Assembly (NCBI GenBank): GCA_951799405.1
Contig: OX637361.1
Span: 11,692,170 to 11,756,169 of the forward strand
From: Agapetus fuscipes
Taxonomy: Eukaryota > Arthropoda > Insecta > Trichoptera > Glossosomatidae
Length of the DNA: 64,000 bases
Direction of reading: 5' to 3'
Part shown: positions 16,686 through 58,795 of the stretch, piece by piece
Layout: each line of letters starts with the position of its first letter
How positions within the stretch are numbered: the stretch's first letter is position 1
The notes under the pieces: model-generated
The model's database searches: none
Told to the model about the DNA's origin: nothing
Seen by the model: the letters and a program-made list of their open reading frames with translations, nothing else
Program-made: the position numbers and the translations under genes

Positions 16686-16976
16686 AAATAAGAGTTTTAG
16701 TTACACGGCCGGCTGATGATGCTGGAGTGATGTTTTCCGGGATCTGTTGCCGTGGTCTGTGGGAGCTGGAGCTTCCAGACGTTTCGCCCATTTCTACAAT
16801 GGGCTTGAAGTATGATGATGATGAAGATGATCTTGATGAGAACTGTGATCACAGAAGATCATCTTCATCATCATCATACTTCACGCTGAAGAAGCTCATC
16901 GTAGAAATGAGCGAAACGTCCGGAAGCTCCAGCTCCCACAGACCACGGCAACATATCCCGGAAAACATCACTCCAG
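16686..16976 (+). mobile_element. PLE foldback unit with 13-bp target duplication
   Basis: Direct repeats CAATATGAAGTTT at 16673-16685 and 16977-16989 flank a unit that folds back on itself around 16851. The right arm reads like the C-terminal PLE coding end (LKKLIVEMSETSGSSSSH) and carries a ribozyme; the left arm is its inverted copy, in which the ribozyme core is deleted. Confidence 0.8.
16879..16926 (+). ncRNA. hammerhead-type ribozyme (PLE)
   Basis: Stem I CUUCACG/CGGAAG with one bulged A; core CUGAAGA at 16886-16892; one extra A; stem II GCUCAU/AUGAGC (perfect six pairs) with loop CGUAGAA; GAAA; then ACGU and cleavage triplet GUC ending 16920. Stem III is only the self-complementary ACGU with no loop, as reported for small PLE hammerheads that act as dimers. 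Confidence 0.75.
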
Positions 16977-16989
16977 CAATATGAAGTTT

Positions 16990-17330
16990 GTACCTACCTG
17001 GGTGGTTCACATCTTAAGACCCCTTTGCTGGCTAGGTTTTCGCCAGTCAGCGCAGAAAAATTCGCAAATAAATAAAGAGCAAACTGCGTGTAAATGAAAT
17101 ATAATTGTCGTGTATAATTTCGATATTATTACTTGATAATAGTTTGTCATTACGGGACATGGGGGTCATTATAATATGCGCGCGCAGCAAAAAACACATC
17201 TTTAATTCGTTTGGCGAGCGCTGGGCTGCCCAACGGCCGGTCTGTAAGCTTTTTGTTGGCGCAATTAAACATATCGCGGTCGCGAAACTTAATAATTGCA
17301 ATTAATGTTGAAATTGAAGGCATTTAACCC
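16990..17330. other. unassigned stretch
   Basis: Contains GC-rich GGCGAGCGCTGGGCTGCC at 17211; no repeat or exon recognised. Confidence 0.35.
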
Positions 17331-17331
17331 G

Positions 17332-17405
17332 GTCCGGTCGATAGCTCAGTGGGTAGAATGCTTGCGTTTCATGCCAGAAGGCTGGTGTTTGATCCCCTCC
17401 AAGGG
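17332..17405 (+). mobile_element. S1 SINE, tRNA-like head
   Basis: GATAGCTCAGTGGGTAGAAT (box A region) and GTGTTTGATCCCC (box B), then cut where LINE-B sequence starts. Not a tRNA gene: no cloverleaf arms pair properly and the same head starts many SINE copies here. Confidence 0.7.
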
Positions 17406-17600
17406 GAATATCCAGAGTCATAATAAAAGGAGAGTTTGTATGAAGAAGGTTATGACTCTGGATGCAATGAAAGAAGTGTGTAAGGCCTGAATGAAATGGC
17501 GGTTGATCTGTTATGTTGGCAGCTAGGGCTAGAGTTTTTTCAATTAGAATTTTGTATTTTTTTTTTTAATGTGTATACTTAGGTACATATTTTATTTATA
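17406..17600 (+). mobile_element. LINE-B (RTE-like) C-terminal end and 3' UTR
   Basis: MKKVMTLDAMKEVC is readable, followed by the conserved 3' block ATGGCGGTTGATCTG..ATGTTGGC. The C-terminus parallels that of LINE-A (KKVMDMKELKEVCQDR). Shifts break the frame. Confidence 0.7.
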
Positions 17601-17604
17601 TTTT

Positions 17605-17745
17605 GAATTGTTTGTGTATTAACACTGTGAAAATTCATATTCAATAATATTTTATTTATTTAATTGAAAGATTCAAATCAAAACACTGTTTTGTATTTTC
17701 ACGATTATAATCATTTATCTATTATTTAATTTTTACAAACGTTTT
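17605..17745 (+). mobile_element. PLE terminal-repeat piece
   Basis: GTTTGTGTATTAACACTGTG followed by AAAACACTGTTTTGTATTTTC, the same two blocks in the same order as in the PLE units at 7566 and 61105. No ribozyme core is left. Confidence 0.55.
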
Positions 17746-17780
17746 TTTATTTGTTTATTTAAAAAAAAAATGTTGTGTAT

Positions 17781-18214
17781 GTTCCTTGAATTATAGGTTG
17801 ACCACCCGTGCTGTAGAAAATGGATCACTTTGCCAATGTCACCCCTGTTTCAGGAAAGGTCGGTAAGAGAGAGTTGCAGGGTGTCAGAAATTACAAATAT
17901 ACCGTTTCGTTGTTTATGTCAATCCAAGAAAAGGGAATACTTTTTGTAAAAAATAAAGTGGGAACGCAGGTGTTTAATATTTTGTGCTCTCAATTATTTT
18001 TGTACTGTAAAAAATGGTTCACTTTGCCAATGTCACCCCTGTGTAAGGGAAGGTCGGCAAAAGTTGTAGGACTTATGTTCATTTGAGGTTTGGATTTTAT
18101 TTGTAAGTACACATTCAGCATTTGTAAGCGCGAACTACACGTGTTTGTATGTGGGCATGCATTTGAGAGCCTTTAATGTTAATATATCTCTGCAACTTAG
18201 ATTATAGATTATTG
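17781..18214 (+). mobile_element. R1 repeat, two overlapping parts with ~117 bp between
   Basis: First part 17781-17885 (R1 head with GTTGCAGGGTGTCAG, the LINE-B-linked subtype); second part 18003-18214 restarts at TACTGTAAAAAATGG and continues to the tail, of a different subtype. Either two insertions or a template switch. Confidence 0.75.
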
Positions 18215-18217
18215 TTG

Positions 18218-18370
18218 AAACAGATATAAGTATAATTTTAAAGAATGAAAAAAACGGATTTTACTGACCGTGCAAAAGAGAAGAACGATTTTCTCTACGT
18301 TTCGTCGGAGTCATATCCGACGTCCTCAGGAGACGTGTGTCCTCTACAAAGAGGAACCACGAACTGTTGA
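18218..18370 (-). mobile_element. PLE foldback-derived unit with 10-bp target duplication
   Basis: Direct repeats ATTATTGTTG at 18208-18217 and 18371-18380 enclose 153 bp that holds one ribozyme arm on the minus strand. Inserted at the tail of an R1 copy. Confidence 0.75.
18292..18333 (-). ncRNA. hammerhead-type ribozyme (PLE)
   Basis: On the minus strand: stem I UCUC/GAGA; core CUGAGGA; one extra C; stem II GUCGGA/UCCGAC, six perfect pairs, loop UAUGAC; GAAA; ACGU; cleavage triplet GUA; then stem I 3' strand. All core positions known to be needed in hammerheads are present. Stem III again only ACGU. Confidence 0.8.
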
Positions 18371-18380
18371 ATTATTGTTG

Positions 18381-19298
18381 TTTGATCGAGGCCGAAGGTT
18401 GTAGGTACTTAGGTTACTACTATAATTATAATGTTTATTTTCGTTGAAATAATTTCTAGTCCTCAGATATCCTAAGTCAATGACGTTTTTCGTGTTGTAC
18501 ATTTTTCACGACATGCCCCGTTAGAGAGGGAGAAAGGAAAAAGAAAAGAAAGGCCGTCATCTCTGTCGGTGATGCAGCGAAAGACAGATGTCTGCTTCTG
18601 CAGGCGGTCCCAGCATCCACACATTTATTTATTTATTCAGTTTCCTCGTGTAAGTTATGACACGATCATTAGAAAGGGGACAGGATGAGTTGATCTTCGA
18701 GTTGATCACTTCATCAACCATGTTGGACTTTTCCGGCTCAACACATGAACATTTCTTTCAAAGAAGGAAATTCTAAAATATTTAGGTATGATAACCTTTA
18801 TTGAAAAAAAAAACATATTTTAAAATTACAATTATTTGAAAGGCAAAAATAGCGTTGCATGTTTTGTTGCTTTGAAAAGTATTCAATGTTCGTAGTACGC
18901 ACACGAAACTCCTATTTCGAAATTGTAACATCACACCGCTGCGCTGGGTTACTGAAGAAAACGTAAACTCATATTTTGTTATTGTTTACTAACGATCTTG
19001 GTCTTATAGACGTGGGACGTTTACCTGCTGAAAAATCAAATTTAAAGTCGATTGTAGTTTCAGTCGTTTTTTTTTTTTTTTTTTTTTATTAGACAAACAA
19101 ACAGTTATACATGTAATATATGGGATAAACAACATAGTTATACAATTTCAAAAACCAGCAAAGAAGTTTTCCAGAGGTATCATTGGTAGGTACCTACCTA
19201 TATTTTTTCTCGAATTAAAATCTTTGTAAACACAATTTTCTCTAAGCGTTGTATCTACAGATTTCTTCTTTTTTATATAGATTTATTTTTAAAGTTTT
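18381..19298. other. unassigned stretch, shared repeat block with 30540
   Basis: AAATAATTTCTAG and CAGATATCCTAAGTCAATG at 18450-18483 resemble 30586-30625, so part is an unclassified repeat. The rest, including a 20-T run at 19070, shows nothing recognisable. Confidence 0.4.
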
Positions 19299-19300
19299 GT

Positions 19301-19560
19301 TCTCTTATACATAGGTTGGTAATTGGTATGAAGCTGACCACCCACACTGTAAAAAATGGTTCACTTTGCCAATGTCACCTCTGTTTCAGGGAATGTCGGC
19401 AAGAATTGCAGGGCTTATGTTCATTTGAGGTTTGAATTTTATTTGTAAGTACACAATCAGCATTTGTAAGCGCGAACTACACGTGTTTGTTTGTGGGCAT
19501 ACATCTGAGAGCTTTGAATGAATATATCCTTGCAACTTAGATTAAAGATAGATTATTATA
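19301..19560 (+). mobile_element. R1 repeat
   Basis: Full R1 with a small duplication at the head (GGTTGGTAATTGGTATG); otherwise the GTAAGTACACAATCAGC subfamily. Confidence 0.85.
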
Positions 19561-19564
19561 GATA

Positions 19565-20040
19565 GTTGTCCTAAGACAAACACTTACTAACACATACCTA
19601 TGAATAGAATTAGGTATCACACGACCTAATTATGCAAGCCTTTCCAGGACAATGCAGTAAGAAGTAAGTACTATATATGCAGCTCAGTTGTGTCGTCTTT
19701 AACATTCATGTAAATAGGTATAGGTTGTTTTCTTGGGATAGGATTCATAAATAATTTAACGTATTTATTTCTCAACAGGTATTCGGTACCTAGGGGGGCA
19801 GGTGGCGCCTAGCAGGAGTTAGGACATCACGGACCTTATCCATTACGAGATCTCTAAACCACAAGAGACATAAATATCCGACATTAAAAACGGCCGCACT
19901 AAATAACAGATAACATGATGGAGCGATGACTTATTCATGCGATAGACATCTGATCGCTTCATCTTAGCTTTGTCAGCGGCTTTTCTATTTTTTGGATGTA
20001 TATTCCAGTTGGTAGAATGCTTGAATCCCATGCTCAGAGC
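19565..20040. other. unassigned stretch
   Basis: No family recognised. Confidence 0.35.
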
Positions 20041-20042
20041 TT

Positions 20043-20265: not shown

Positions 20266-20446
20266 TCTATTTTCAAAAATTACCGAAATCCAGAAAATTT
20301 CATCTCCACATTTTCGAAAAAAAAATCTAAATACGTTAAGGGCTTTTTGTGATTTTTTTAAAAATTTTCATCTAAGTAATGAGTTTAAAATAAAATTATT
20401 TCTTTCTAAAACGTAGTTTTATTTTCACAATAATATTTTATACCTA

Positions 20447-20492
20447 CCTCAAGCACTTTCGACCTTCAATACTCAGGTCATTATCAAGATCA
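20447..20492 (-). ncRNA. hammerhead-type ribozyme, UUGAUAA core, left arm
   Basis: Minus strand: core UUGAUAA, extra U, stem II GACCU/AGGUC, GAA, stem III AG/CU with UG loop, U at the cleavage position. Stem I pairs only two or three bases. Confidence 0.5.
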
Positions 20493-20505
20493 CTCTATAT
20501 ACATC

Positions 20506-20550
20506 ATTCTTGATAATGACCTGAGTATTGAAGGTCGAAAGTGCTCGAGG
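20506..20550 (+). ncRNA. hammerhead-type ribozyme, UUGAUAA core, right arm
   Basis: Plus strand: UUGAUAA at 20510-20516, stem II GACCU/AGGUC, GAA at 20537-20539, stem III AG/CU, C at 20546 as the cleavage base, GAGG for stem I with weak pairing on the 5' side. Confidence 0.55.
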
Positions 20551-20666
20551 TACTTATAAAATATTATTGTGAAAATAAAACTACGTTTTAGAAAAAAAAA
20601 AAATTATTTTAAAATAAAATGAATTTTCACTGTGTGAATACACAAACCCTACAAAATCTAAGTAAT

Positions 20667-21351: not shown

Positions 21352-21650
21352 TAAAACTCTTTTTTTTCTTGACGAGTTGATTTATTTCCTCGTGCGCTTA
21401 CGATGTTTCAAGAGGACAACTAACTCAATCTAAAATTACAAATGTGGATTCCGGAGAAAGTTTTCTAACCAAAGGAATCCACATTTGTAATTTTAGATGT
21501 GTTAGTTGTTCTCTTGATAATGATGTGATAGCATCGAAAGCGCTCGAGGAAATAAATCAACTCGTGAACAGAAAGTTTGTGTTTTTTATTTTTTTGCATT
21601 ATTACTTAATTTGAAATGAATCTTCACAGTGTCAAAACATGAACCCTTAA
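21352..21650 (-). mobile_element. PLE foldback unit
   Basis: Arms about 21372-21452 and 21474-21564 are inverted, imperfect copies (GTTGATTTATTTCCTCG and CGAGGAAATAAATCAAC; AATCCACATTTGTAATTTT). Ends with the TCTTCACAGTGTCAAAACAT block, the reverse of the PLE start motif. Sits directly after an R1 tail. Confidence 0.7.
21510..21549 (+). ncRNA. hammerhead-type ribozyme with UUGAUAA core
   Basis: Stem I UCUC/GAGG; UUGAUAA at 21514-21520; extra U; stem II GAUG/CAUC; GAA at 21536-21538; stem III AG/CU with CG loop; cleavage base C at 21545. Stem II differs in sequence from the 7716 copy but pairs, which supports the fold. Confidence 0.65.
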
Positions 21651-21724: not shown

Positions 21725-21920
21725 TTTTAGTGTTGATCTATTAACACAGTGAAAGTACATTTTTATAAGTTTAAAAATTCAAATGGGTAAAACATAGTTG
21801 TAATCATCGATATAAATTATATACATATTTTATTTAGATCAATGGTTGTAATTCACTTATTTATCTCTTTTTTGTGCTCGAACATTTTCGCCTAATAAGG
21901 CATCTTCAGGAGCAGAATGG
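21725..21920 (-). mobile_element. PLE terminal-repeat unit, single arm
   Basis: TTAACACAGTGAAAGTAC, then GGTAAAACATAGTTGTAAT and a minus-strand ribozyme; the same order as the left half of the 7566 unit. Confidence 0.65.
21875..21914 (-). ncRNA. hammerhead-type ribozyme (PLE), complete
   Basis: Minus strand: stem I UGCUC/GAGCA (five pairs); core CUGAAGA; extra U; stem II GCCU/AGGC with UAUU loop; GAA; stem III AA/UU with UG loop; cleavage base C in triplet UUC. Every core position matches the hammerhead consensus. Confidence 0.8.
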
Positions 21921-22961: not shown

Positions 22962-23248
22962 AAATGTAACTTCTTGCCGCGTTATCCCCGAAAGGTTTCG
23001 CATGTGGCGAGTGGAAACTATTTATTTTTACAGGTAAGGGGGCCAGCCTTACGCCAACCACTTCATTAGAAGTGTGGGTTTCCCAGCACCATTTATTGTG
23101 AAGACTGAGTAAACCTTGCCGGTATTTAATTTTGGGGTTTGAAATAAACGCCGAAACGGGAAATCATTTCTGACACCCTCGGCGGGATTCGAACCCGAGC
23201 TCACGGCATGGAATGCAAGCACTCTACCAACTGAGCCACCGACCGGAC
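22962..23248 (-). mobile_element. S1 SINE, full length
   Basis: Head at the right: GGGATTCGAACCCGAGC (reversed box B) and ACCAACTGAGCCACCGACC (reversed box A region). Body and 3' blocks (GTAACTTCTTGCCGCG) at the left. Confidence 0.9.
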
Positions 23249-23249
23249 T

Positions 23250-23870
23250 AAATAATTTTAAAATGTATGGGATCACAGCATCTTGTGAATGAAATAATTT
23301 TTGTTATTTATGAGTTTGTATACGGCATATAACAGGCTTCATTAACGTCTAAACACACACTTAACTTTTGTTTTATTAATTACCTTTCTTATTTCTCGCT
23401 CTGTGTAAACTATACTTTATGTGCCTATAAAAAACAGAAAGCCAAGTCCACACATCGTACAAACATTTGGAGCGAGTATGCCGAGTGGCCGAATATTCGT
23501 CAATCAAATCTAATATTATTAAATTTCTAGCTCGTGTAATTTTTTTTACGTTCAAGTGATATTTCACGGCATGGCGTCAAATGTTTTTTTTTCTATAAGT
23601 CAATATTCAAGTTGCAAAGGTGTGTTTTCAAAGTTAATGATAAAAAGTGAGAAATAATTCAATCAAAATGTTGATTTCTTATAGAAGCTACGTGTTTATA
23701 TACGAAAAGGTACTTTTGTTGTTGTTTACTTGATTAATTAGGTATCTGCATTCGCTAGGACACATCCAGCGAATGGATCTTTGGAGAGGATTTCGGTGAG
23801 CCTGGAGAGGTATTTAGAAGATTAAATTTGTTGCAATGGACTATCGAAAAAGTGTAAGGATAAAACAAAT
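23250..23870. other. unassigned stretch
   Basis: No family or gene recognised. Confidence 0.35.
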
Positions 23871-24510: not shown

Positions 24511-24610
24511 GTATATATATTAGACTCTTACTAAAAGATGATGTTGATGATGATGATGTCTCCATCCTTCCGGGCTTGTAGGCCATGTTCAATATTGTAG
24601 GCTGCTTATT

Positions 24611-24970
24611 AATACAAGGCTCAAGGAACATAACCGTTACTGCAGACTAGGCCAAACTGATAAGTCAGCGGTGGCTGAACATGCGTTGCTCGATAACCAC
24701 GACATTAATTTCAAGGATACAAAAGTACTTGCAAAAACCGGTGGTTATTATGCTCGTCTAAATAGAGAGGCCATAGAAATTTACAAAAATAAAAATTTTA
24801 ACCGAAAAGAGGAGGGAATGAAAGTAAATAAAATATGGCGTCCAGCTCTGGAAAGTTTAAAATTTCAAACACTGCCTTTCCCGCCAAATTTACAAGCCCC
24901 GCCCACTCCACATAGACACATAAATACCGCATGCTCAAATCAAAGCGATCAGTCGAAGAAGAAGCCCTGA
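24611..24970 (+). pseudogene. PLE protein C-terminus (GIY-YIG endonuclease part), truncated
   Basis: PLE proteins join a reverse transcriptase to a C-terminal GIY-YIG endonuclease that nicks target DNA; here only the last ~120 codons remain. The frame reads through TRLKEHNRYCRLGQTDKSAV, AEHALLDNHDINF, REAIEIYKNKNFNRKEEG and IWRPALESL, and stops at 24970. The glutamate in REAIEI and the asparagine in NFN are the family's conserved active-site neighbourhood. The start codon, the reverse transcriptase and the GIY motif itself are absent because the copy is 5'-truncated, so no enzyme can be made. The hammerhead overlaps and follows the stop codon. Family call is strong; exact PLE clade is not decided. 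Confidence 0.85.
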
Positions 24971-25010
24971 AGAAGTCAGTCGCACGTCACTGACGAAACG
25001 TTGCAAAAAG
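24960..25010 (+). ncRNA. hammerhead-type ribozyme (PLE)
   Basis: CUGAAGA at 24967-24973; extra A; stem II GUCAGU/ACUGAC, six perfect pairs with an eight-base loop; GAAA; ACGU; cleavage triplet GUU ending 25002. Stem I pairing is poor, unlike at 16879, so activity is uncertain. Confidence 0.65.
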
Positions 25011-25141
25011 AGAAAAAAGAATAAGCAGCCTACAATATTGAACATGGCCTACAAGCCCGGAAGGATGGAGACATCATCATCATCAACATCATCTGAAGCC
25101 GGCCATGAAAGCCTTAAAACACTTATCTTACTAAAAGGTTG

Positions 25142-28145: not shown

Positions 28146-28475
28146 CCGGTCGATAGCTCAGTTGGTAGAGTGCTTGCATTCCACGCCGAGAGCTTGGGTT
28201 CGAATCCCGCCGAGGGTGTCCGAAATGATTTCCCGTTTCGGTGTTTATTTCAAACCCCAATATAAAATACCGGCAAGGTTTACTCAGGCTTTACAAGAAA
28301 TGATTACCAACCCACTCAGGAGCTGGGAAACCCCCACTTCAACTGAAGTGGTTGGCGTAAGGCCGGCCTCCTTAGCTGTAAAAATAAAAAAGTTCAACTC
28401 GCCCCATGCGACCCCTTCGGGGATAACACGGCAAGAAGTTACACTATATGTGTAGCTTAGTTGCGTTAGTTGCCG
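28146..28475 (+). mobile_element. S1 SINE, full length
   Basis: The best S1 head: GATAGCTCAGTTGGTAGAG (box A) and GGGTTCGAATCCC (box B), 40 bases apart as in tRNA genes. The body includes GAAATGATTTCCCG and ACTTCAACTGAAGTGG; the 3' end is GCAAGAAGTTACACTATATG and TAGCTTAGTTGCG. Confidence 0.9.
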
Positions 28476-29145: not shown

Positions 29146-29347
29146 AATTCCTTAATTTAAAAGATGGTATGAGGCTGACCACCAAAATGGTTCACTTTGC
29201 AAATGTCTCCCCTGTTTCATGGAAAGTCATCAGAAATTTCAGGTTTAGTTGGAATTACGGTCGTTTGACATATTAACTACACAAAATAAATAACTACACA
29301 GTTAAAAAAACGGATATCAGACGAACATTTATAAGAGAACATACATT

Positions 29348-29390
29348 ATTCTCGACGTTTCGTTAGCGACGTAGCCAACGTCTTCTGTCT
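29348..29390 (-). ncRNA. hammerhead-type ribozyme, left arm, one core change
   Basis: Minus strand: CAGAAGA instead of CUGAAGA, then stem II GUUGGC/GCUAAC, GAAA, ACGU, triplet GUC. The U4 to A change probably weakens it. Confidence 0.45.
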
Positions 29391-29430
29391 CTGTCTCTGT
29401 CTCATCCCCAGTCGTCGTGGAGAGAGGGTG

Positions 29431-29470
29431 TCTCCTGAAGACGTTTGCTACGTCGCTAAAACGTCGAGAA
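29431..29470 (+). ncRNA. hammerhead-type ribozyme, right arm, damaged
   Basis: Stem I UCUC/GAGA and core CUGAAGA at 29435-29441 are intact, but bases are missing just before GAAA (GCUAAAACGUC), so the second half of the core is broken. Confidence 0.45.
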
Positions 29471-29720
29471 TGTTGTGAGCTTGCTTAAAACGGAATCATC
29501 TAATATCCGATAATTTTTTTTGACTATGTAGTTATTAAAGTTGTAAAAAAAAACAGATTAAATATATTAATTTTATATTAGTTTTTTTTATTTTGTAAGT
29601 GCAAATGAAGCATATTTTGTAAGGGCGAACTTACACGTGTCTGATTTTGGGCATGCATTTAATTCGAATCTTAATTGCTAATATACCAGTACCTACAACT
29701 CATATTATAGATTTTATTAA

Positions 29721-30964: not shown

Positions 30965-31248
30965 GCAACTAAGCTACATACATAGTGTAATTTATTGCCG
31001 AGTTATTCCCGAGGGCTTTCGCATGTGGCGAGTGGAACCTATTTATTTTTACAGGTAATGGGGCCGGCCTTACGCCAAGCATTTCAGTTGAAGTGGGGTG
31101 ATACTCATTTCCTATGAAAGCTGAGTATTTTATTTTGGGTTTGAAAATAAACATTGAAATAGGAAATCATTTCTGACACCCTTGGTGGGATTCGAACCCG
31201 AGCTCACGGCATTGGATGCAAGCACTCTACCAACTGATCTATCGACCG
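30965..31248 (-). mobile_element. S1 SINE
   Basis: Head at right with GGGATTCGAACCCGAGC and CTACCAACTGATCTATCGACC; 3' blocks at left. Internal deletion before GGGGTGATACTC. Confidence 0.9.
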
Positions 31249-31361
31249 GTAAAAAAATAAGTAATTCCCACTGATTTTATAAGTTTAAAGGCCCTAAAGT
31301 CATAACAGCGACCTTTTTCTGCTGTCTTCGACTTTGAGTTTAAGCTGTAAAGTAGCTTATC

Positions 31362-32355: not shown

Positions 32356-33070
32356 TAAATATTTTCGTACCTAGTGCCCTATCTTAGTCAACTAAATAAT
32401 AAAGGAAATTATGAAAGTAAGACTAAGTACGAGTAGAAGGCATATCTGTGCGAGTCTGCATTTTCTCATATGAAAGTAATAAAATCAAAAGATCGTACTC
32501 GTTTCACAAATGATCGACTGTGGCAGTGGTCGGAAAAGTGTTGCTCGGAAACGATAATTTTAATCGACATCTTATTGATTAGGTCGATCTCCTCATGAAA
32601 AAGTATGGGCACCCCTGGCTTATTCAATACCGGTGTTGGTATTGAGAATCCCGGTTTTCGTAGATAACCCAATACCAGTATCTACTGCGAACCCTAATAA
32701 GTGGCGCTGAGAGCTTCATAGAGCGCCGACGTCTCGTGAAAAATATTTTGTTTTTACTTTTATTTTACGTTAGATGAAATATCGCTTGAGAATTTACGTG
32801 AGTTATTGAGTGACTGGAGCTTGTCATAGCTCAGCAAAGGCGGCAAAAGTTGTGAAAGTTGAAAAGTTAATAGTGATTTGCATTTTCTTGTACTTCCTAT
32901 ATTACAGCTTCAAGCTTTTAGCAAATTTTCCAACATGTAAATCGCTGATCATCAGATGAAAATGTATATAATAAAAGGATTTTTATTTTTCCAATGTTTG
33001 AGACAGGTACTTTTATCGAATTTAATTTTAGCGAATAGGACGATGTATGGTCCTATTTGCGGTTATGGAC
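32356..33070. other. unassigned stretch
   Basis: ATACCGGTGTTGGTATTG and AATACCAGTATC near 32625-32680 are interesting only as weak inverted words. No gene seen. Confidence 0.35.
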
Positions 33071-40219: not shown

Positions 40220-41445
40220 CCGCAAAATTTTCGGAAAAGGAAATAATCAAAATAATCTTTAAATTAAACTACTTTAAAGAACATTTAAATTCAACTAAGT
40301 ATGTAGGTACTTAAATTCAAAATTAAATTAAATAAATAAATATCGGGCTGGCTTAGGTATTCTGTTACAGCTATGATTGTGTAAATCACACCTTAAGAGC
40401 GCTTTGTATTTCTTCGTAAAAAAATTTCAAAGATTTCAACCTTGCGAATTTAGATGGTAACCAGTAATCTACAGCAACTTGCTACAGGGCGAAAAGATAT
40501 TAGAAGTCATCAATGACTCATCAAAAATATGATATGACTAATAAAAATATAATAAACTTCAATGTGATAGGTAGGTACCTACTGTTTATTCAATAAAGGG
40601 CTATTTTTACTTTCGATCTATAATACAGCAGGAATTGTATTAAAATGCATTTTTATTCCATTTAAATTCAGCATAATTTCGCATGCAGGGGGTTAAACCA
40701 TATGCCCGGTAGCATTTTGAGCGCACATGTTCATAACGCCGCTCACAAACCATCACTTCTGCATGACCTTTTTGCACGTATGTGTCAAATCAAAAGCAAG
40801 CATGAATTACGTGTAATTGAGTGTTCGCACAACACAAATACATGAAAAGCTAGTTGGCTTGTAGAAGTTAGATTGTATGATGTTTCATACGCACTGAACA
40901 GCTTAGCATCTTGCCGATATTTCATCTGCCGAACGTTTCGTTCATATCTGCGATGAGCATCAATAACAGGGATCTGTTGCGGTGCGCTGATGATGTTCGT
41001 TGTAGATTTAGGTGAAAAGTTCAGAAAATTATTTTTGCAAGACCTCACGGCTACTGGGGCCTGATTTCGGTATTTTAACATCATAAAGAAAAGGGATGGA
41101 TGCATCGCAAGTAAGCAAGTGCGAGAGAGACAGATAATAAAACGAAAAAAAAACTGTGTACTCATGAAAGGTGTTTGCGTGAATACACAATTTGAAGAAA
41201 GTAAAAGCAATGAAGCAACACTGGATACAGCGAGTCATATGTAAAATTATATATTTTTTAACTTAAAAACTGCCGCAAATATTACTTTCAAAATAAGTAA
41301 TACCTCTGAACCCGAACGCTTATCTGTGTCCAAAAACCATGTATGCATGGCAATCATCCATGAATGAATTATTCAACTCAAAATAATAGTGACAAAAATA
41401 TAATTATTATATTATAACGTGTGTACCATCATGTGGGAGTTCAAA
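40220..41445. other. unassigned stretch, overlapping minus-strand frames
   Basis: A 141-codon minus-strand frame at 40785-41210 begins MLLLSSNCVFTQTPFMS; I do not recognise it and see no splice or homology evidence. The rest shows nothing. Confidence 0.3.
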
Positions 41446-41796: not shown

Positions 41797-41809
41797 TGAC
41801 ATAAAAGTA

Positions 41810-41984
41810 TGATGATGATGATGATCTTGATGAGAACTGTGATGAACTACTTCACGCTGAAGAAGCCCATCGTAGAAATGGGTGAAACGTCCGGAAGTTC
41901 CAGCTCCCACAGACCACGGCAACAGATCCCGGAAAGCATCACTCCAGCATCATCAGCCGGCCGTGTAAGCCTAAAACTCTTATT
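41810..41984 (+). mobile_element. PLE 3' unit with 13-bp target duplication
   Basis: Direct repeat TGACATAAAAGTA at 41797-41809 and 41985-41997. The unit is a 5'-truncated PLE 3' end: it reads LKKPIVEMGETSGSSSSHRP and ends TAAGCCTAAAACTCTTATT. Only one arm is present, so this is the simplest complete unit. Confidence 0.85.
41850..41897 (+). ncRNA. hammerhead-type ribozyme (PLE)
   Basis: Stem I CUUCACG/CGGAAG with a bulged A; CUGAAGA at 41857-41863; stem II CCCAU/AUGGG plus an A-U closing pair; GAAA; ACGU; triplet GUC ending 41891. Compared with 16879, one stem II pair changes from C-G to U-A with pairing kept. Confidence 0.75.
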
Positions 41985-42235
41985 TGACATAAAAGTAGTT
42001 ACTTATCTTGTTTGAATGTCGAATGTTGAACGATCGTCAATAGAGGGTAAAAGGGAAGGAACTTGAGTTGCAGTAAAATATATAGATACCTACTATCTAC
42101 AATCTAAATTGTATATTATTATTATATTTGCACATTTTATTATCTGTATGGAAACAAAAACGCTAACCAGGAGGCACTGTTTTAGTTTCCATATTTTTTC
42201 CATAAACACTATGTTTTATACTTGGTTAGCAGACT

Positions 42236-42345: not shown

Positions 42346-42703
42346 TTTTTGTGCCAATTCTATCGAAGATCGGCAATCATCATGGCTATTTTGACTTCGG
42401 ATGCTGCGGCTCGAAACAGGGACTTGGTGCTTCTACCGAATCACTGTCGCAGGTTTTTCAGCCACGATGGCTGATAGGTTGGTATGCGGCTGACCACCCA
42501 TACTGTAAAAAATGGTTCACTTTGCCAATGTCACCCCTGCTTCAGGGAAGGTCGGCAAGAGTTGCAGGGCTTATGTTCATTTGAGATTGGGTTTTTTATA
42601 TTGTAGGTCCACATGCGGCATGTGTAAGCGCGAAATTATGCATGTCTGCTTGTGGGAATGCATTTAATATGAATCTCAAATGATACATATCTTTGTAGCT
42701 TAG

Positions 42704-42898
42704 TATATTATTTAGATTTTGGGCAGTAACTTTGTGAAAGCACATTTTAATTAATTAAAATACTTTTTTAACTTTGTTACAATTCACTTGAGTTTTATTT
42801 TTTAAAAAACACAACCTTGTTGATATTTACACCTGAAGATGGGAGGTACTGCTTCTCCCGAAACTGGTTGTGTTTTTTAAAAAATAAAACTCAAGTGA
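42704..42898 (+). mobile_element. PLE foldback unit with 12-bp target duplication
   Basis: TTTGTAGCTTAG at 42692-42703 and again at 42899-42910. Inside are two perfect 29-nt arms (42787-42815, 42867-42895) enclosing the ribozyme core. Confidence 0.85.
42829..42873 (+). ncRNA. hammerhead-type ribozyme, complete
   Basis: Stem I ACAC/GUGU; CUGAAGA at 42833-42839; extra U; stem II GGGAG/CUCCC with nine-base loop; GAA at 42860-42862; stem III AC/GU with UG loop; cleavage base U at 42869 in triplet GUU. All three stems differ from the 21875 copy yet still pair. Confidence 0.8.
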
Positions 42899-43247
42899 TT
42901 TGTAGCTTAGATTTAGATTAGATTTAGATGGCTCCCCTCAATCTTACCCTGAATGATAAGATGAAGGAGACGGTACTTCTCATTTCTCATAATGTGACCG
43001 AAGTACATAATCTTTCTCTGCTTAATGGTAGGCAGGAGCTGCTTTGTAGTGCGCATTCGTTGAAGGACTTCTTCATTGGTGACTCGATCACGCCAAGAGA
43101 TCCGAAGCACTTTTCGGTAGAGACACATCTCGAATGCTTCAATTCGTCTCTCCAGTGCCTGCGTGAGAGTCCAAGGCTGCCTCTACTACTACCATGTATA
43201 CTATTCTATGTATAGATACTATTCTATGTATACTATTCTATACTATC

Positions 43248-43912: not shown

Positions 43913-44380
43913 TAACTGTAAGAGCCCGTTCTTACTTGTCGGATGTCGGATCCGAATATAAGTCGGAGGTTCCAGTGGCAGAACATTTCGAACAAAATCG
44001 GTTTCCGATAAGTGTGAATAGCTTCATACATAATGTTCTGCCACTGGAACCTCCGATTAATATACGGATCCGACACCCGACAAATGGGAACGGGCTCTAA
44101 CTCTGTCAACATTCCGCTAGGGGTGGCCAGAGCCTCTTCAGATTTGCCTCTATTTTTTCCTACCCTTGCGTTCTTCTTTCAATTCATTCATATCCAACTC
44201 CTTTTTCATAAATTTCTTTCTTTTACATTCGCTTTGTATTCCGTTCTTTCACAACTTCACCAATCTGATCCAATCATACTTTTCTCAGTCTTCCCTTTCC
44301 TCTTTTTCCTTTCACATTTCCTCTGTATACACACTTTGTAGGTCTTTCATCGTCCATTCTTTCACAAAAGGGTTCGTCGG
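43910..44380 (-). mobile_element. LINE-A 3' end with M6 in its tail
   Basis: GTAACTG tail, M6 insert, then the minus-strand C-terminal region (44101-44380) with many stops. Confidence 0.75.
43922..44097. mobile_element. M6 MITE with TAA target duplication
   Basis: TAA at 43919-43921 and 44098-44100. Ends GAGCCCGTTC/GAACGGGCTC; arms continue GTCGGA..CGGAGGTTCCAGTGGC inverted for about 68 bp. A 3-bp TWA duplication is typical of PIF/Harbinger-type elements. Second copy at 48697. Confidence 0.8.
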
Positions 44381-46675: not shown

Positions 46676-47512
46676 ATGTGTGGAAAATAAAGCAGCACCC
46701 CTATTGCCAGCCACATCTAAGCGTGATCACCTATTAGTGAACGGATTACCACTCTCCATAGGAGGTAAGCTAATCCAGCCTTCTGATTCAGTAAAACTTC
46801 TAGGAGTCTTACTGGATCGGAATCTGACACTGGAGAGGCAAATAGATGCCACAATAGCTTCTTTTTTTTTTCACTACGCCAAATTAAGGCTATTAGAAAG
46901 TGTTTACCGTCAGATGCAGTCAAGATCCTAGTGGGCGCGTTTGTGGTGTCTCGGATTGACTATTGTTCGACGCTTTATAGTGGTCAGCCAAAGAAGCAGT
47001 TCAATCGCTTTCAATCTGTGTTGAATTCGGCAGCAAGACTCATATTCGGGATACCCAAATTCGCTCACATCACTCCGCTGTTAAAAACACTGCATTGGCT
47101 TCGTTTCCCCGAGAGGGTGGTCTACCGTGTTTGTGTGATGGTATATAAAGCCATCAATGGCTTGGCTCCACCTTATTTGACTGACATGATGTTGCCTGTT
47201 GAGATAGGTGTAAGGAGGCAGACACTCAGATCCGCGGGCGATGGAGTAGTCAATTTGGTTCAGCCACGCCGTCAGATTCGTACAAATTTCGGAGACCGCG
47301 CTTTCCGTGTTGCGGGTCCGGTGGAGTGGAACAGACTGCCACCCGGAGAAAAGAACTCCAAATCTGTGGATGTATTTCGCGGAGCACTCAAGACACACCT
47401 TTTTAGAAAGTCTTATCCATGATCGGAGAGGGCCCTTGAGGTGTGACACACACAAAAACGGCGCTCTCTTATCATTTGTAATTTAAAATAAATTAGCCTG
47501 ATATTATTATTA
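46676..47512 (+). mobile_element. LINE-D (CR1/L2-like), 5'-truncated copy
   Basis: Encodes the last part of the reverse transcriptase protein in two frames: SIGGKLIQPSDSVKLLGVLL, then after a shift SRIDYCSTLYSG, LKTLHWLRFPERVVYRVC and NFGDRAFRVAGPVEWNRLPP to KTHLFRKSYP. The 3' end GAGGTGTGACACACAC AAAAACGGCGC and an (ATT)n tail are complete. Close to the copy at 54978; the 163-codon frame at 46931 is part of this dead copy. Confidence 0.9.
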
Positions 47513-48696: not shown

Positions 48697-48878
48697 TAAG
48701 AGCTCGTTCCCACTTGTCGGGTGTCGGATCTGTATATTAATCGGAGGTTCCAGTGGCAGAACATTTCGGACAAAATCGGTTTCCGATAAGTGTGAATAGC
48801 TTTATATATAATGTTCTGCCACTGGAACCTCCGATTAATATACGGATCCGACACCCGACCAGTGGGAACGAGCTCTTA
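48697..48878. mobile_element. M6 MITE
   Basis: TAAGAGCTCGTTCCCACT and AGTGGGAACGAGCTCTTA are perfect inverted ends, with long paired arms; flanks give TAA and TTA. Confidence 0.85.
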
Positions 48879-54359: not shown

Positions 54360-54465
54360 AAATATTTAAAAAATTGAAATGGTAAAACATGGTTTTAATT
54401 CACTTTATTATTTTTGTTTTTGCTCGTACATTTTCGCCTAATGAGGCATCTTCAGGAACCCAATT
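54360..54465 (-). mobile_element. PLE terminal-repeat piece with decayed ribozyme
   Basis: GGTAAAACATGGTTTTAATTC and then, on the minus strand, CUGAAGA, extra U, stem II GCCU/AGGC, GAAA. The cleavage triplet is changed to UAC, so it should not cut. Sister of 21875. Confidence 0.6.
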
Positions 54466-54781: not shown

Positions 54782-54867
54782 GCAAATAATAAATAACATT
54801 TGTGTATATAAATACATGAAGATGGTGAAAAAACAATATAATGAGGTAATCTAGTTATTTTTAAGGA

Positions 54868-54960: not shown

Positions 54961-54977
54961 TATATATATATATATAT

Positions 54978-56400
54978 GTCAGGCTTATTTGTTTTAAATT
55001 ACACATGATAAGAGAGCGCCGTTTTTGTGTGTGTCACACTTCAAGGGCCCTCTCCGATCACGGATAAGACTTTTTGAAAAGGTGCGTCTTGAGAGCTCCG
55101 CAAAATATACCCATAGATTCGGAGTTCTTCACTCCGGGTGGCAGTCTGTTCCACTCCACCTGACCCGCAACACGGAAAGCACGGTCTCCAAAATTTGTAC
55201 GGATCTGACGGTGCGGCTGAACCAAATTGATTGCACCATCGCCCGCGGATCTGAGTGTCTGCCTCCTCACACCCATCTCAACAGGCGAAATCATGTCAGT
55301 CAGATAAGGTGGAGCCAAACCATTGATGGCTTTATATACCATCAGACAAACACGGTAGACCACCCTCTCCGGGAAACGAAGCCAATGTAGTTTTTTTAAC
55401 AGCGGAGTGATGTGAGCGAATTTGGATATCCCGAATATAAGCCTTGCTGCTGAATTCAACACAGATAGAAAGCGGTTGAAATGCTTCTTTGGCTGACCAC
55501 TATAAAGCGTTGAGCAATAATCAATCCGAGACATCACAAACGCACTCACCAGGGTCTTAACCGCATCTGACGGAAGACACTTTCTAATTGCCTTTATTTG
55601 GCGCAGTGAAAAAAAGGAGGAAGCTATTGTGGCATCTATTTGCCTTTCCAATGTCAGGTTCCGATCCAGTAAGATTCCTAGAAGTCTCACCGAATCGGAA
55701 GGCTGGATCAGCTTACCTCCTATGGAGAGTGCTACCCCATTAACCAATAGATGGTCGCGCCTAGATGTGGCTGCCCAGAGTATCTCCGTCTTATCCATGT
55801 TCAGGATTAGGCCATTGTTCACCATCCACTCACCGACCTCCGAGATACACCCAGAGACCCTACAACTGAGGTCCTCAGTCATGTCTGGCCGACATTGAGA
55901 GTATATTTGCCAGTCATCTGCATATGAATGTGAGATGAGGCCCCATTTTTCAACAATACTCTCAATGTCAGCAGTATACAATATAAAAAGAATCGGACCC
56001 AGCACAGAGCCCTGTGGAACCCCAGAGGACAGCGAGTAGGTAGGTGAGACACTATCACAAACACGCACCGCCTGCCTGCGTTCCACCAGATAGGAGGAGA
56101 ACCATGCTAAAGCCCCGCCGGTCAATCCGTACGACACCTCCAACCTCTCAATAAGAATCAGGTGACTTACTGTGTCAAAAGCCGCACTCATGTCAAGAAG
56201 CGCCAGTAAGGCCAGATCGCCACACTCTACAGCCGATATCATATCCGATACAAGCTTAAGCATACCGGTTTCTGTTGAATGATATTTCCGGTATGCCGAC
56301 TGCCTCTTAGGCATTAATCTATTTGCATCTAGATACGACACCAACCGCCGGGAGACAATCCGCTCCAGCACCTTCGACAAGAATGGCAGATTTATGATGT
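54978..56400 (-). mobile_element. LINE-D (CR1/L2-like), 5'-truncated, intact frame
   Basis: Reference copy of LINE-D: the coding end at 55058-56380 and the 3' end GGCCCTTGAAGTGTGACAC, then ACAAAAACGGCGC and a degenerate tail at the left. The 5' UTR, endonuclease and start of the reverse transcriptase are missing. Confidence 0.9.
55058..56380 (-). CDS. LINE-D reverse transcriptase, C-terminal 440 residues
   Basis: Reverse transcriptase of a CR1/L2-like LINE, which copies the element RNA into DNA at a nicked target. Motif A is LLDMSAAFD (catalytic D63), motif B SSGVPQGSVLG (about 118-128) and motif C SYADD (Y153 to D156, the catalytic pair); the thumb and C-terminal block runs through SRIDYCSTLYSG and NFGDRAFRVAGQVEWNRLPP to KTHLFKKSYP. 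A full protein of this family is about twice as long and has an endonuclease domain in front, absent here. The ATG used by the frame is an internal methionine, not a real start. It is the only long intact frame in the window and suggests a fairly young insertion. The copy at 46676 is broken. Confidence 0.9.
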   Translation of the reverse strand: MSKVLERIVSRRLVSYLDANRLMPKRQSAYRKYHSTETGMLKLVSDMISAVECGDLALLALLDMSAAFDTVSHLILIERLEVSYGLTGGALAWFSSYLVERRQAVRVCDSVSPTYSLSSGVPQGSVLGPILFILYTADIESIVEKWGLISHSYADDWQIYSQCRPDMTEDLSCRVSGCISEVGEWMVNNGLILNMDKTEILWAATSRRDHLLVNGVALSIGGKLIQPSDSVRLLGILLDRNLTLERQIDATIASSFFSLRQIKAIRKCLPSDAVKTLVSAFVMSRIDYCSTLYSGQPKKHFNRFLSVLNSAARLIFGISKFAHITPLLKKLHWLRFPERVVYRVCLMVYKAINGLAPPYLTDMISPVEMGVRRQTLRSAGDGAINLVQPHRQIRTNFGDRAFRVAGQVEWNRLPPGVKNSESMGIFCGALKTHLFKKSYP

Positions 56401-56452
56401 CTTTATATTATGTCTTTATACTTTGATGTCTTTATACTTTGTAGCAGGCCTG

Positions 56453-56811
56453 TTAGCTGCGTAGTGTTGTGTTGTGTGTTACGTTGGCTTTGTTTTGAGG
56501 CATTGAAAGGACGTGGCGATTGAGAGATCGGCGCAGGCCACATGCTATCAAAATATCAGCAATAGAACCATCGACATTGGAGTTCCAGTCTCGCCAACTC
56601 AACAACTGTTCTCCATTGTATTTGCTCATTGGTAGGCTTGGCACCGGTGCTCTTGTTCTTCGCCAGGATTCAGAAGAAGAAGAAAACATATCATAACAAA
56701 GATTTATTTTAAAGGTAATTAAATTATTCTCTAAAAGAAGGAAATGTTTTAAAAAATATATGGATATGTGTGTCAGTAGAGGAATAAATAGATTACATTC
56801 AGTCTTTAAAA
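56453..56811 (-). other. unrecognised open frame region
   Basis: The minus frame has MFSSSSESWRRTRAPVPSLP and WRDWNSNVDGSIADILIACG; not recognised. The rest of the stretch is A/T-rich. It directly follows the LINE-D break, so it may be old flanking repeat. Confidence 0.25.
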
Positions 56812-57064
56812 ATTTTTTTTTTTTTTTTAAGATTTGTGAAAAGGAATGCAATTCACCAACCTATTCTGCCTGGCCAGAAACAGTTATTAATATAATCAAT
56901 TATTGTTTATTTTAATGAATTATTAATTAATAATTACCCAATAACATCTGTTAAACCAGGGTCAAAGTTATGATCAAATGACCCAGGCAGGGATTGAACC
57001 AACGTTGCTCAATTCCAAACACGCTAGAAAGATCAGCCCACTTGGCCCCCTCGGCCATAACACC
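56812..57064 (-). mobile_element. S3 SINE, full length
   Basis: Poly-T, AAAGGAATGCAATTCACC, CCTGGCCAGAAACAG, then the head CACTTGGCCCCCTCGGCC at right. Confidence 0.9.
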
Positions 57065-57082
57065 GTTATTTAAAAATCATTG

Positions 57083-57316
57083 ACTGACCACCCATACTGT
57101 AAAAAATGGTTCACTTTGCCAATGTCACCCCTGCTTCAGGTAAGGTCGGCAAGAATTGCAGGGCTTATGTTCATTTGAGATTGGGTTTTTTATATTGTAG
57201 GTCCACATGCGGCATGTGTAAGCGCGAAATTATGCATGTCTGCTTGTGGGAATGCATTTAATATGAATCTCAAATGATACATATCTTTGTAGCTTAGATT
57301 TAGATTTAGATTTTAG
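57083..57316 (+). mobile_element. R1 repeat, lacking the first ~35 bases
   Basis: GACTGACCACCCATACTG to GTAGCTTAGATTTAGATTTAG; close to the copy at 42470. Confidence 0.85.
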
Positions 57317-57485
57317 ATTGTCGTCCCTTTTTTACATCTATCTACTCTACTCTTATTTTTGAAAAAAAAAAAAATGAATTCCTTAACTTTCCCCAACCAT
57401 AATATTTTTAGTAGTAGTAAAACCTGCTGTAGTTGTCGATCTCTATTCAGTATGGTGGACATTATTTGTAATTTTCAATAGAGTT
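57317..57485. other. unassigned
   Basis: Nothing recognised. Confidence 0.35.
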
Positions 57486-57486
57486 C

Positions 57487-57640
57487 TGTACTCCGAGTTT
57501 CAAACATTTCGATGGCGTAAATAGAAAATGTATGAAAGGTACGACAGCACTCGTATAGAGCAATTTAGTTTTGATCCATTTTTAGATTTACGCAATCTAG
57601 GGAGTTAATTTGAATGTTTTATGCTCTGGGTACAGATAGA
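57487..57640. mobile_element. M7-like foldback element
   Basis: GTACTCCGAGTTTCAAAC and AATTTGAATGTTTTATGC near the ends, GGCGTAAATAGAAAATGTA inside. Confidence 0.4.
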
Positions 57641-57894
57641 TCTATCATTGTATCGATAAGGGATCATGTCTGGACACAAACAGAGGTCGCTAGTCTATGC
57701 TCTCTACCGCAGATCTCAGTGATCTAAAGATCTCGCCGACTCCTAGATCCCTAGATCGAGATGAAGACTTCATTCTCGTAGTGTGCCGCTTCCGACAAAG
57801 GCCATTGATCATTTTCGCCAACATGGAAGTAACAATTTTTACTTTTTGCAAAAGAAAACACCAATAAAAAAAACGTCCATCCAGCCTCTTTGTA
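57641..57894. other. unassigned
   Basis: CTAGATCCCTAGATCGAG-type short words; nothing recognised. Confidence 0.3.
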
Positions 57895-57990
57895 GCGACG
57901 ACCAAGCTCGTAAACAACACCTCTGCGGCACTACAGCAAGTGTCGTAGACCCCTAGAGTCTCTGAAGTCTAAGGAGTCTCGTGCACATAT
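57895..57990 (+). mobile_element. S2A SINE, 3' end fragment
   Basis: GCGACGACCAAGCTCG, ACACCTCTGCGGCACTAC, GACCCCTAGAGTCTCTG. Confidence 0.7.
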
Positions 57991-58063
57991 ATATTTATTT
58001 ACAAGTTACTCAATAAATTACCTCAAGTTCTATGAACGATTGAATTTCTTTCTGGAAGTGCCA

Positions 58064-58170
58064 TTTCTAACAAAGATCGGCAATCATCGATCGTGGCTAT
58101 CTTTACTTTAGAATTTAGATGCTGCGGCTAGAAATAGGGACTTAGTGCTTTTGTTACACCATTGTCGTAA
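58064..58170 (-). mobile_element. LINE-C 3' end fragment
   Basis: Minus strand STKSLFLAAA-like residues matching 42345-42455. Confidence 0.65.
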
Positions 58171-58503
58171 ACTTATCTTAGCTGCAAATAATATTTAAAT
58201 CAATTTCGAACTTTACGATTTAGTAGGTAGTAGGTATACATACTAGAAAAATATTGTAAAACATAATAAGTTGGTTGAACCCAAAAACAGAGTTTAACTA
58301 GCTTATTAGTATGGTAAAACCGACTTAATACTGGTTTAAAAATAAAAACCTTTTTTATTATTAAGAATAATTGTGGGCATACAAATTAAATTCAGCTGCA
58401 TACTTTTGACACCCTTTCTTAATATGAGGATGATTTGGTCAAAAAATTACAATTTTACAATATCGACTTGCGATATTCTTTTAGAATCAAATTCCAATGA
58501 AAC
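58171..58503. other. unassigned
   Basis: Nothing recognised. Confidence 0.35.
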
Positions 58504-58513
58504 ACTGTACATT

Positions 58514-58795
58514 TTCGATGATGATGATAAGGATGTAGAATCCATCTTTCCGGGCTTGTAGACCATGGTCCAATAATTCTTTTGTAGGCTGCTTTATTCT
58601 TTTTGGAAGGCTGCTACGTTTCGTCAGTAACATATGACTGACTTCTTCAGGGCTTGTACTTAGTCTAAGTAAAGAATAAAGCAGCCTACAAAAGAAGTAT
58701 TGGACCATGGTCTACAAGCTCGGAAAGATGGATTCTAAATACATCCTTATCATCATCATCTGAAGCCGGCCATGAAAGCCTAAAAACACTTAGGT
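58514..58795 (-). mobile_element. PLE foldback unit with 10-bp target duplication
   Basis: ACTGTACATT at 58504-58513 and 58796-58805. Arms of about 85 nt (GGGCTTGTAGACCATGG and CCATGGTCTACAAGCTC and onward) are nearly perfect. Same 3' end as 24538 (CTGAAGCCGGCCATGAAAGC). Confidence 0.85.
58610..58655 (-). ncRNA. hammerhead-type ribozyme (PLE)
   Basis: Minus strand: CUGAAGA, extra A, stem II GUCAGU/ACUGAC with an eight-base loop, GAAA, ACGU, triplet GUA. Stem I pairs poorly, as at 24960. Confidence 0.6.

Follow-up and report, generated by a model that had tools for sequence, protein, structure and literature searches.

The 64,000-nucleotide (nt) stretch of the Agapetus fuscipes genome analysed here (contig OX637361.1, positions 11,692,170 to 11,756,169 of the forward strand; hereafter the window) carries many small hammerhead-type ribozyme motifs, which lie in short repeat units of Penelope-like elements (PLEs; Table 1). 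An earlier note on this DNA had listed 14 such sites, four of them decayed, that share one plan and had described them as parts of PLE foldback units. We consider it likely that these sites are minimal dimer-type hammerheads in the pseudo-long terminal repeats (pseudo-LTRs, pLTRs) of several PLE families, and that the foldbacks are two-ended insertions made on uncleaved RNA. Coordinates such as +1 and -52 are counted from the predicted cleavage site.

We searched the window with a descriptor that required the CUGANGA core with at most one mismatch or with a U3/A8 pair, one extra base, a stem II of at least 4 base pairs (bp), GAA, a short stem III and the NUH triplet. At a score of at least 3 the descriptor returned 15 sites, compared with a mean of 0.575 and a maximum of 2 in 40 dinucleotide-preserving shuffles; at a score of at least 6 it returned 8 sites, compared with a mean of 0.05 in 40 dinucleotide shuffles. 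The 15 sites comprise 13 of the 14 listed earlier, one at 7719 and a weak one at 32955. A covariance model trained on 14 window sites (13 from the earlier list and 7719, with 29431 left out) gave 18 sites at E<0.05, among them all 14 listed ones; 13 of these 14 had trained the model, and the independent test is provided by the shuffles. Site 29431, outside the training set, scored 24.1 bits. Beyond the earlier list the model recovered 7711-7763(+), which is a training row, and the decayed copies 7678-7728(-), 16770-16812(-) and 40924-40974(-). The plan claimed for the 14 sites is thus borne out, and core, stem II, GAA and NUH cleavage triplet are present as in PLE-associated minimal hammerheads. 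The covariance-model search that the earlier note had suggested succeeded with our own model and failed with the Rfam hammerhead models, which gave no window match at gathering score and contributed none of the 35 matches at E<=10; the probable reason is that the sites have hardly any stem III. The Rfam microRNA (miRNA) rows in the window fall mostly on long foldbacks and were discarded as chance matches.

The stems of these sites covary. In an alignment of the 14 window sites, 81.9% of cells pair, compared with 53.8% after shuffling; the covariation score was 0.713 compared with 0.193 (standard deviation 0.037; best slid control 0.153), and 41 cells were changed on both sides compared with 13.8. 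None of 500 shuffles reached any of these three values. Two weaker measures were less extreme: pairs with a both-sided change (8 of 10) were also reached by 120 of 500 shuffles, and the 23 further pair types by 15 of 500. Pairing holds for 92.7% of cells in stem II and 66.1% in stem I. The claim that stem II covaries, and stem I in the better copies, therefore stands, and the alignment that might have shown paired changes to be no more frequent than chance showed the opposite. ViennaRNA folds, in which stem II was visible by eye in most of 10 sites and plain dimer energies did not single out the stem III duplex, were not used as evidence.

PLE hammerheads are said, in work by Lunse from 2017, to cleave as dimers. 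If G-U pairs are counted, 14 of the 15 stem III strings of our families are self-complementary (ACGU and the six-mers AAUGUU, ACUGGU, AGUGCU, AGCGCU, AGUACU, AACGUU, ACCGGU and GGCGUU), the exception being a decayed copy in L034. The central two bases are self-matching in all 14 strings, which a two-base hairpin loop would not need, and this self-complementarity fits pairing between two RNAs, the published dimer mode (PMC6466107). The core pair is U3-A8 in D and D2 and C3-G8 in the other families. The whole core is exact in 34 of 44 D arms and 18 of 20 D2 copies, and stem II differs between the two families by two compensatory changes (GACC/GGUC and GAUG/CAUC). The swapped core pair may work, because the change C3G/G8C partly restores cleavage in the PLE PAc (Poseidon, Anolis carolinensis; PMC11167929).

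The link to PLEs comes from open reading frames (ORFs) that end at or near the ribozyme. The P-type frame at 24602-24964 continues as far as 24967, where the UGA of the hammerhead core lies; at 24959-24969 the stop UGA of the PLE ORF is the UGA of the core CUGAAGA, so that the gene end overlaps the ribozyme. Pfam gave no match in this ORF piece itself. It has 52 protein relatives, of which two carry PF01541 and one (Dendroctonus) is named as GIY-YIG domain-containing, and the named relatives are from insects. A longer F relative, L118, has an open stretch of 223 amino acids (aa) that matches PF01541 at 22.8 bits (cut-off 22.6), and the one protein relative found for it also has PF01541. This ORF ends 54 nt upstream of the hammerhead core, and an ATG lies at +68. 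The open stretches of L118 and of the window P copy are the C-terminal part of the ORF only. Judged from its relatives, the P-type piece is a PLE C-terminus, and we assign the source families of P and F to the PLEs because a GIY-YIG-type ORF ends at (P) or 54 nt before (F) the ribozyme core. The F hammerhead lies between the end of one ORF and the apparent start of the next, as expected in a pseudo-LTR. Inverted pLTRs, a tail on one pLTR and a target-site duplication, as in PLEs, are found in F and D; families other than P and F are placed among the PLEs by the common ribozyme plan and, where seen, by inverted arms and target-site duplications. Descriptor, covariation and the GIY-YIG ORFs of P and F agree with the earlier assignment of the sites as minimal hammerheads of PLE type.

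We then characterized the insertions of family F, using the non-palindromic query L058 +1..+108. Of 1102 candidates 40 were scored, one of them L058 itself; 260 nt were fetched per locus, with 37 loci fetched and three taken from an earlier palindromic-query set. All 40 scored arms are identical to the query over 108 nt, and F is a young family, represented by dozens of identical copies in this genome. An inverted match lay within the fetched stretch at 25 of the 40 loci; at 10 the arm runs off the stretch and at 5 there is none, so that a head-to-head partner accompanies 25 of the 30 arms that end inside it. The partner start lies inside the stretch in 18 of the 25 pairs, and, as the partners in L103 and L106 run off the edge, 16 pairs are complete. 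In all 16 the long arm extends to +108, as the selection requires, and its partner stops between +48 and +66, mostly at +62 to +64, and all 16 are flanked by a repeat of 10-14 nt, whereas 1.6% of mispaired flanks have a repeat of at least 10 nt and 28% one of at least 8. The palindromic-query set, which includes the window unit and leaves out the single-arm L058, gave the same picture with a longer reference: in 20 of 20 inverted units the end of one arm falls within +104 to +129 and that of the other within +35 to +74 (slightly stretched by BLAST). A near-constant sum of the two arm lengths was rejected as a ranking effect of the colinear palindromic query. F centres contain either no filler at all or short stretches that differ among loci. 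A complete F foldback is therefore one insertion with a 10-14 nt target-site duplication and two head-to-head arms, one starting near each of two reverse transcription (RT) sites. Separately, at G000 C3:13283406-13283679 two F tails lie in direct orientation, 166 nt apart, in tandem and not head to head.

The 5' ends of the F arms bear on the state of the template. None of the 40 arms of the +1..+108 search ends within 5 nt of +1; all run through the predicted cleavage site, and the whole hammerhead is kept in 33 of 40 arms and 14 of 18 partner arms. Over all F arms there is no peak at +1 (2 of 84 measurable ends in -1..+2); 12 of 84 ends lie exactly at -52 and 19 in -53..-48. Of the long arms, 22 have their end between -110 and -1, and 8 of these fall in -53..-48 (P 1e-5). 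Of 18 pairs, 7 have both 5' ends in this interval, 1 has one end there and 10 have none (Fisher P 3e-4). Position -52, which lies 15 nt upstream of the core, is occupied by the A of the initiator-like string TTAGTTG. Because arms that reach far past -52 show that RT was not blocked there, the position appears to mark where a separate RNA begins and is likely a transcription start. Most F arms run upstream through the uncleaved hammerhead to -52 or to a truncation point, and the F insertion record holds no sign of cleaved RNA as template.

Family D (core UUGAUAA) has the same architecture: in all 22 loci found by a palindromic query, 20 outside the window and two within it (20384 and 7620), two arms are joined head to head. 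Between the cores lie 11-37 nt in 21 of the 22 (the 7620 unit was not anchored), and these spacers vary by locus and partly repeat the upstream sequence of the arms. In 18 of 22 units there is a flanking repeat of at least 9 nt whose position makes one arm 39-66 nt longer than the other (a count without a null). Among D arms with an exact core, 14 of 34 match the upstream string for exactly four bases, beginning at ACTC; a G directly precedes ACTC in 10 of the 14 arms starting there (L001-L020), which may reflect the capped 5' end of an RNA or a base specific to the subfamily. Arm identity is 90.4% within and 89.2% between loci. At diagnostic column 41 the two arms agree in 20 of 22 loci, at column 52 likewise in 20, and at both in 18; the idea that the arms of one D unit come from unrelated RNAs was dropped on account of this agreement. 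A concordance score of 0.468, compared with 0.522 for random pairing and so in the opposite direction, was left unused, as most of its columns lie past the ends of the short arms. Outside these sets, family E at L032:9700-10000 has the core CUGAUGA and stem III AACGUU, with an intact hammerhead in both arms at the centre of a near-perfect palindrome.

An inverted partner lies at most 600 nt upstream of 9 of the 15 descriptor sites (weakly at 29387), and none was found for 18292, 21875, 41850, 2966, 54422 and 32955. An unselected sample, drawn from the window and random genome pieces, holds 22 sites, of which 12 are accompanied by an inverted partner; 4 of these 12 are the paired arms of units 20384 and L032. 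The earlier description of the units as foldbacks accordingly fits part of the sites, and it had missed that the arms are head-to-head complementary DNAs (cDNAs) that cross the predicted cleavage site.

Based on these findings, we propose the following model. F would be arranged in the order of the 3' end of the GIY-YIG ORF, the recurrent RNA 5' end near -52, the hammerhead (-37 to -1), the RT start near +62, the ATG at +68 (taken as the ORF start of the next copy) and the RT start near +108. The PLE protein would cut both target strands and prime RT from both ends (two-ended target-primed RT) on uncleaved RNAs, and the two cDNAs extended from the target ends would then be joined. Cleaved RNA and template RNA would be alternative fates that exclude each other, because the hammerhead sits downstream of the RNA 5' end and upstream of both RT starts, so that cleavage would split the template. 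Because stem III is self-complementary, cleavage would require either RNA dimers or the PLE protein. Many short units would result because RT begins near the 5' end of the element's own transcript, at ~115-160 nt per arm. One could extend this model to a hammerhead that acts as fate switch and pairing device: stem III would join two uncleaved transcripts in one particle, one RNA would be copied per target end from different RT sites, cleavage would only release translatable or spent RNA, and U3-A8 switches would be tuned to the uncleaved state. We regard this extension as rather unlikely.

Several points weigh against the proposal of two-ended insertion on uncleaved RNA. Ends were mapped in quantity for F and D alone, 40 of about 1,100-1,750 candidates being scored per search, and five F loci (L058, L091, L094, L107 and L110) have no inverted partner though the arm ends inside the stretch. 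With the F query a copy ending at +1 should score equally, and arms ending past +1 were excluded by the exact +1..+108 match. When all 93 F arms including partners are taken, 84 have a measurable end, which is at most 5 nt from +1 in 7 cases and at most 12 nt from it in 16; 12 of these 16 come from the 20 palindromic-query copies and the window unit, that is, from a query that favours such junctions. Two P-type partner arms begin 13 and 18 nt past the predicted cleavage site, near what a cleaved template would give. The transcription start at F -52 is read from insertion ends alone. Finally, the D arms of one locus are of the same subfamily and perhaps derive from the same RNA, and the sharing of subfamily between D arms and of end class between F arms would also fit one RNA copied twice.

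Among other explanations, the motif might be kept for its shape and serve the PLE particle as a module for protein binding or RNA dimerization; cleavage would then be weak or lost, most of all in the U3-A8 lineages. The exact U3-A8 cores of D and D2, with compensatory changes in their stem II, and the uncleaved F templates would suit such a role. It is harder to reconcile with F, A, P and 18292, which retain a core of the cleavage type and an NUH site, and other PLE hammerheads reportedly cleave as dimers (Lunse 2017). The PAc hammerhead cleaves in vitro with protein (PMC11167929). Taken together, we hold retention for shape to be somewhat unlikely.

Foldbacks could also form by self-priming, when one cDNA or antisense RNA snaps back to copy itself, as in the model for the Adineta vaga PLE (PMC3846280). 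Head-to-head order, palindromic centres, the shared subfamily of both D arms and the frequently shared end of both F arms are what this mechanism would leave. A self-copied arm, however, would mirror the first, and self-priming is disfavoured because a mirrored arm predicts equal outer ends, which are not seen: the arms start at different RT sites in 16 of 16 complete F pairs. Target-site duplications flank the F pair, and D arms are barely more alike within a locus (0.904) than between loci (0.892). We consider self-priming quite doubtful.

Another possibility is that hammerhead cleavage takes place in vivo and determines where the RT template begins, in line with the processing roles suggested for retroelement ribozymes and retrozymes. 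Stem and core kept by covariation across families, the near-+1 minority of F ends and the two P-type partner starts (+13 and +18) speak for it. The F arms speak against it through the missing peak at +1, the peak at -52 and the non-palindromic search, in which no arm ended close to +1, and PAc insertion is unaffected by hammerhead mutants (PMC11167929). Template trimming is already disfavoured for F, and we judge it very unlikely. That the sites are chance matches within a large AT-rich repeat landscape has practically no chance of being right and is refuted as a whole: the missing Rfam match, weak sites such as 32955 and two of five covariation measures that are not extreme would permit it, and the 15 sites against 0.575 in shuffles, together with paired cells and a covariation score that exceed all 500 shuffles, do not.

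Table 1. Hammerheads, PLE units and related features of the window (positions within the 64,000 nt; bits refer to our covariance model)
Feature	Position	Strand	Basis and details
F-type PLE unit, head-to-head pair	42704..42899	+	duplication TTGTAGCTTAG at 42693-42703 and 42900-42910, within a repeat tail; sequence, copies, arm map
F unit hammerhead, stem III ACUGGU, predicted cleavage after 42869	42825..42877	+	descriptor; 50.4 bits
PLE foldback unit	16686..16977		arms 16720-16806/16892-16978; duplication AATATGAAGTTT at 16674-16685 and 16978-16989, read by eye
Hammerhead, stem II GCUCAU/AUGAGC, stem III ACGU	16878..16928	+	descriptor; 48.6 bits
Partner-arm hammerhead, CUGANGA strand lost, stem II GCCCAU/AUGGGC	16770..16812	-	23.6 bits
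Single non-inverted PLE unit, family of the 16686 unit	41810..41985	+	duplication GACATAAAAGTA at 41798-41809 and 41986-41997, by eye; no inverted partner
Hammerhead, stem II GCCCAU/AUGGGU	41849..41899	+	descriptor; 46.5 bits
P-type PLE fragment between inverted arms	24536..25094	+	arms 24536-24610 and 25020-25094, 100% complementary
C-terminal PLE ORF piece, GIY-YIG relatives, no own Pfam match	24602..24964	+	protein relatives
Hammerhead, stem II GUCAGU/ACUGAC, stem III ACGU	24959..25010	+	descriptor; 47.1 bits
Hammerhead of second P-type foldback unit	58607..58658	-	descriptor; 45.9 bits; partner-arm match begins 13 nt beyond predicted cleavage site
D-type head-to-head unit	20384..20613		flanking repeat ATCTAAGTAAT; arms 20384-20489 and 20508-20613
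D-type hammerhead, U3-A8 core UUGAUAA, stem III AGUGCU	20502..20554	+	descriptor; 48.1 bits
D-type hammerhead, other arm of 20384 unit	20443..20495	-	descriptor; 45.7 bits
D-type head-to-head unit	7581..7820		duplication AAAAGCTCTCATTTA at 7566-7580 and 7821-7835
D-type hammerhead absent from the earlier list	7711..7763	+	46.8 bits
Decayed D-type hammerhead, other arm of 7581 unit	7678..7728	-	25.1 bits
D2-type hammerhead, U3-A8 core, stem II GAUG/CAUC, stem III AGCGCU	21506..21553	+	descriptor; 38.1 bits; 20 copies surveyed
Hammerhead, stem II GUCGGA/UCCGAC, stem III ACGU	18288..18337	-	descriptor; 46.7 bits
G-type hammerhead, stem II GCCU/AGGC, stem III AAUGUU	21872..21917	-	descriptor; 42.7 bits
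G-type hammerhead, stem I unpaired	54418..54463	-	descriptor; 38.5 bits
H-type hammerhead, G8A core change	2963..3012	+	descriptor; 47.0 bits
H-type hammerhead, CAGAAGA core	29346..29395	-	descriptor; 38.6 bits
Decayed H-type hammerhead, GAA lost	29427..29473	+	24.1 bits
Decayed hammerhead-like stretch, weak	40924..40974	-	20.4 bits

The window holds further repeats. The target of the 42829 unit is an abundant repeat family ending in (TTAGA)n. Two near-alike long palindromes at 43938-44081 and 48705-48870, a foldback repeat with a common inner loop and no hammerhead, account for chance matches to miRNA models. Copies of a short interspersed nuclear element (SINE) resembling transfer RNA (tRNA) lie at 17340-17500, 23160-23250, 28146-28270, 31125-31249 and elsewhere, some with a weak Rfam tRNA match. 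A 449-aa open frame with RVT_1 (7e-24) at 55058-56407 (-) belongs to a retroelement not linked to the hammerhead units; a 211-aa frame at 46787-47422 (+), which has no Pfam match, resembles by eye a relative of it. A 24-base unit forms a tandem array of 4.5 copies at 3853-3974.

The earlier note had called it unusual to see so many distinct hammerhead types in one window. As a control we applied the untrained descriptor to 20 random 10-kb pieces of the same genome (200 kb). At a score of at least 6 these contained 7 sites, or 2.24 per 64 kb, compared with 8 in the window, which is thus ~3.6 times richer (Poisson P 0.002, for a window that was picked); the covariance model found 15 sites at E<=0.05 in the random 200 kb. 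Grouping stem II and stem III strings by eye gave about 8 types in the window (F, D, D2, G, H, A, P and 18292) and about ten in the random 200 kb. The window is rich and not exceptional in kind, many types per region being the norm in this genome, and the earlier claim is weakened accordingly. Extrapolation (7 per 200 kb x 618 Mb) gives a genome total of ~22,000 near-intact motifs, roughly 9,000-45,000 by Poisson error.

Cervera and de la Pena (2014) and Lunse, Weinberg and Breaker (2017) reportedly described the minimal type I hammerheads of PLEs. The kind of ribozyme, its link to PLEs, the inverted pLTRs, the tail and the use of uncleaved template in vitro are already known. The rule of one arm per RT site, the 5' end that recurs a short way upstream of the hammerhead and the U3-A8 lineages were not found in the literature searched, outside of which the main PLE hammerhead papers lie, and part of this may be in print. 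Our sites share with the minimal type I PLE hammerheads (PMC7761336, PMC6155905, PMC6466107) a near-absent stem III, the dimer type, the pseudo-LTR position and thousands of dispersed copies. They differ from those described in these sources in that some lineages here keep U3-A8 and that six-nt stem III palindromes occur (AACGUU, ACCGGU, AGCGCU, AGUACU and wobble forms). Metazoan non-LTR retrozymes (PMC7229834) are likewise short non-coding units with type I hammerheads in very many copies. Unlike retrozymes, whose head-to-tail repeats yield circular RNAs upon cleavage (PMC7229834), our units run mostly head to head through the cleavage site: 25 of the 30 F arms with an end inside the fetched stretch have an inverted partner, and one direct F-tail repeat was seen. 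The Penelope of Adineta vaga (PMC3846280) resembles F in its head-to-head pLTRs, the optional tail on one of them and an initiator-like string, with target-site duplications of 8-10 bp there; in the main text of that paper the word hammerhead is absent. In contrast to its proposal of self-priming on an antisense template (PMC3846280), the arm ends here fit two-ended RT better.

The role of PLE hammerheads in vivo has been called a mystery (PMC7761336). The young F family records a template that looks uncleaved, often started ~15 nt upstream of the core and was copied from two fixed RT sites, one per arm. With this record, both what the ribozyme does and how the PLE inverted repeats arise can be tested directly, and F-type units offer a source for dispersed minimal hammerheads in animal genomes. 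The closest parallel to our model is PAc, which cuts and extends both target strands, begins RT at two internal sites that delimit the tail, relies chiefly on unprocessed RNA as template and has a hammerhead that cleaves only with protein (PMC11167929). F would share with it the two internal RT starts that define the tail, the cutting and extension of both strands, the unprocessed template and the hammerhead beside the ORF start. Beyond PAc, the insertions studied here show one arm per RT site and a recurrent 5' end upstream of the hammerhead, and F insertions are the expected product of a PAc-like enzyme if both target ends are extended on uncleaved RNA and the cDNAs joined.

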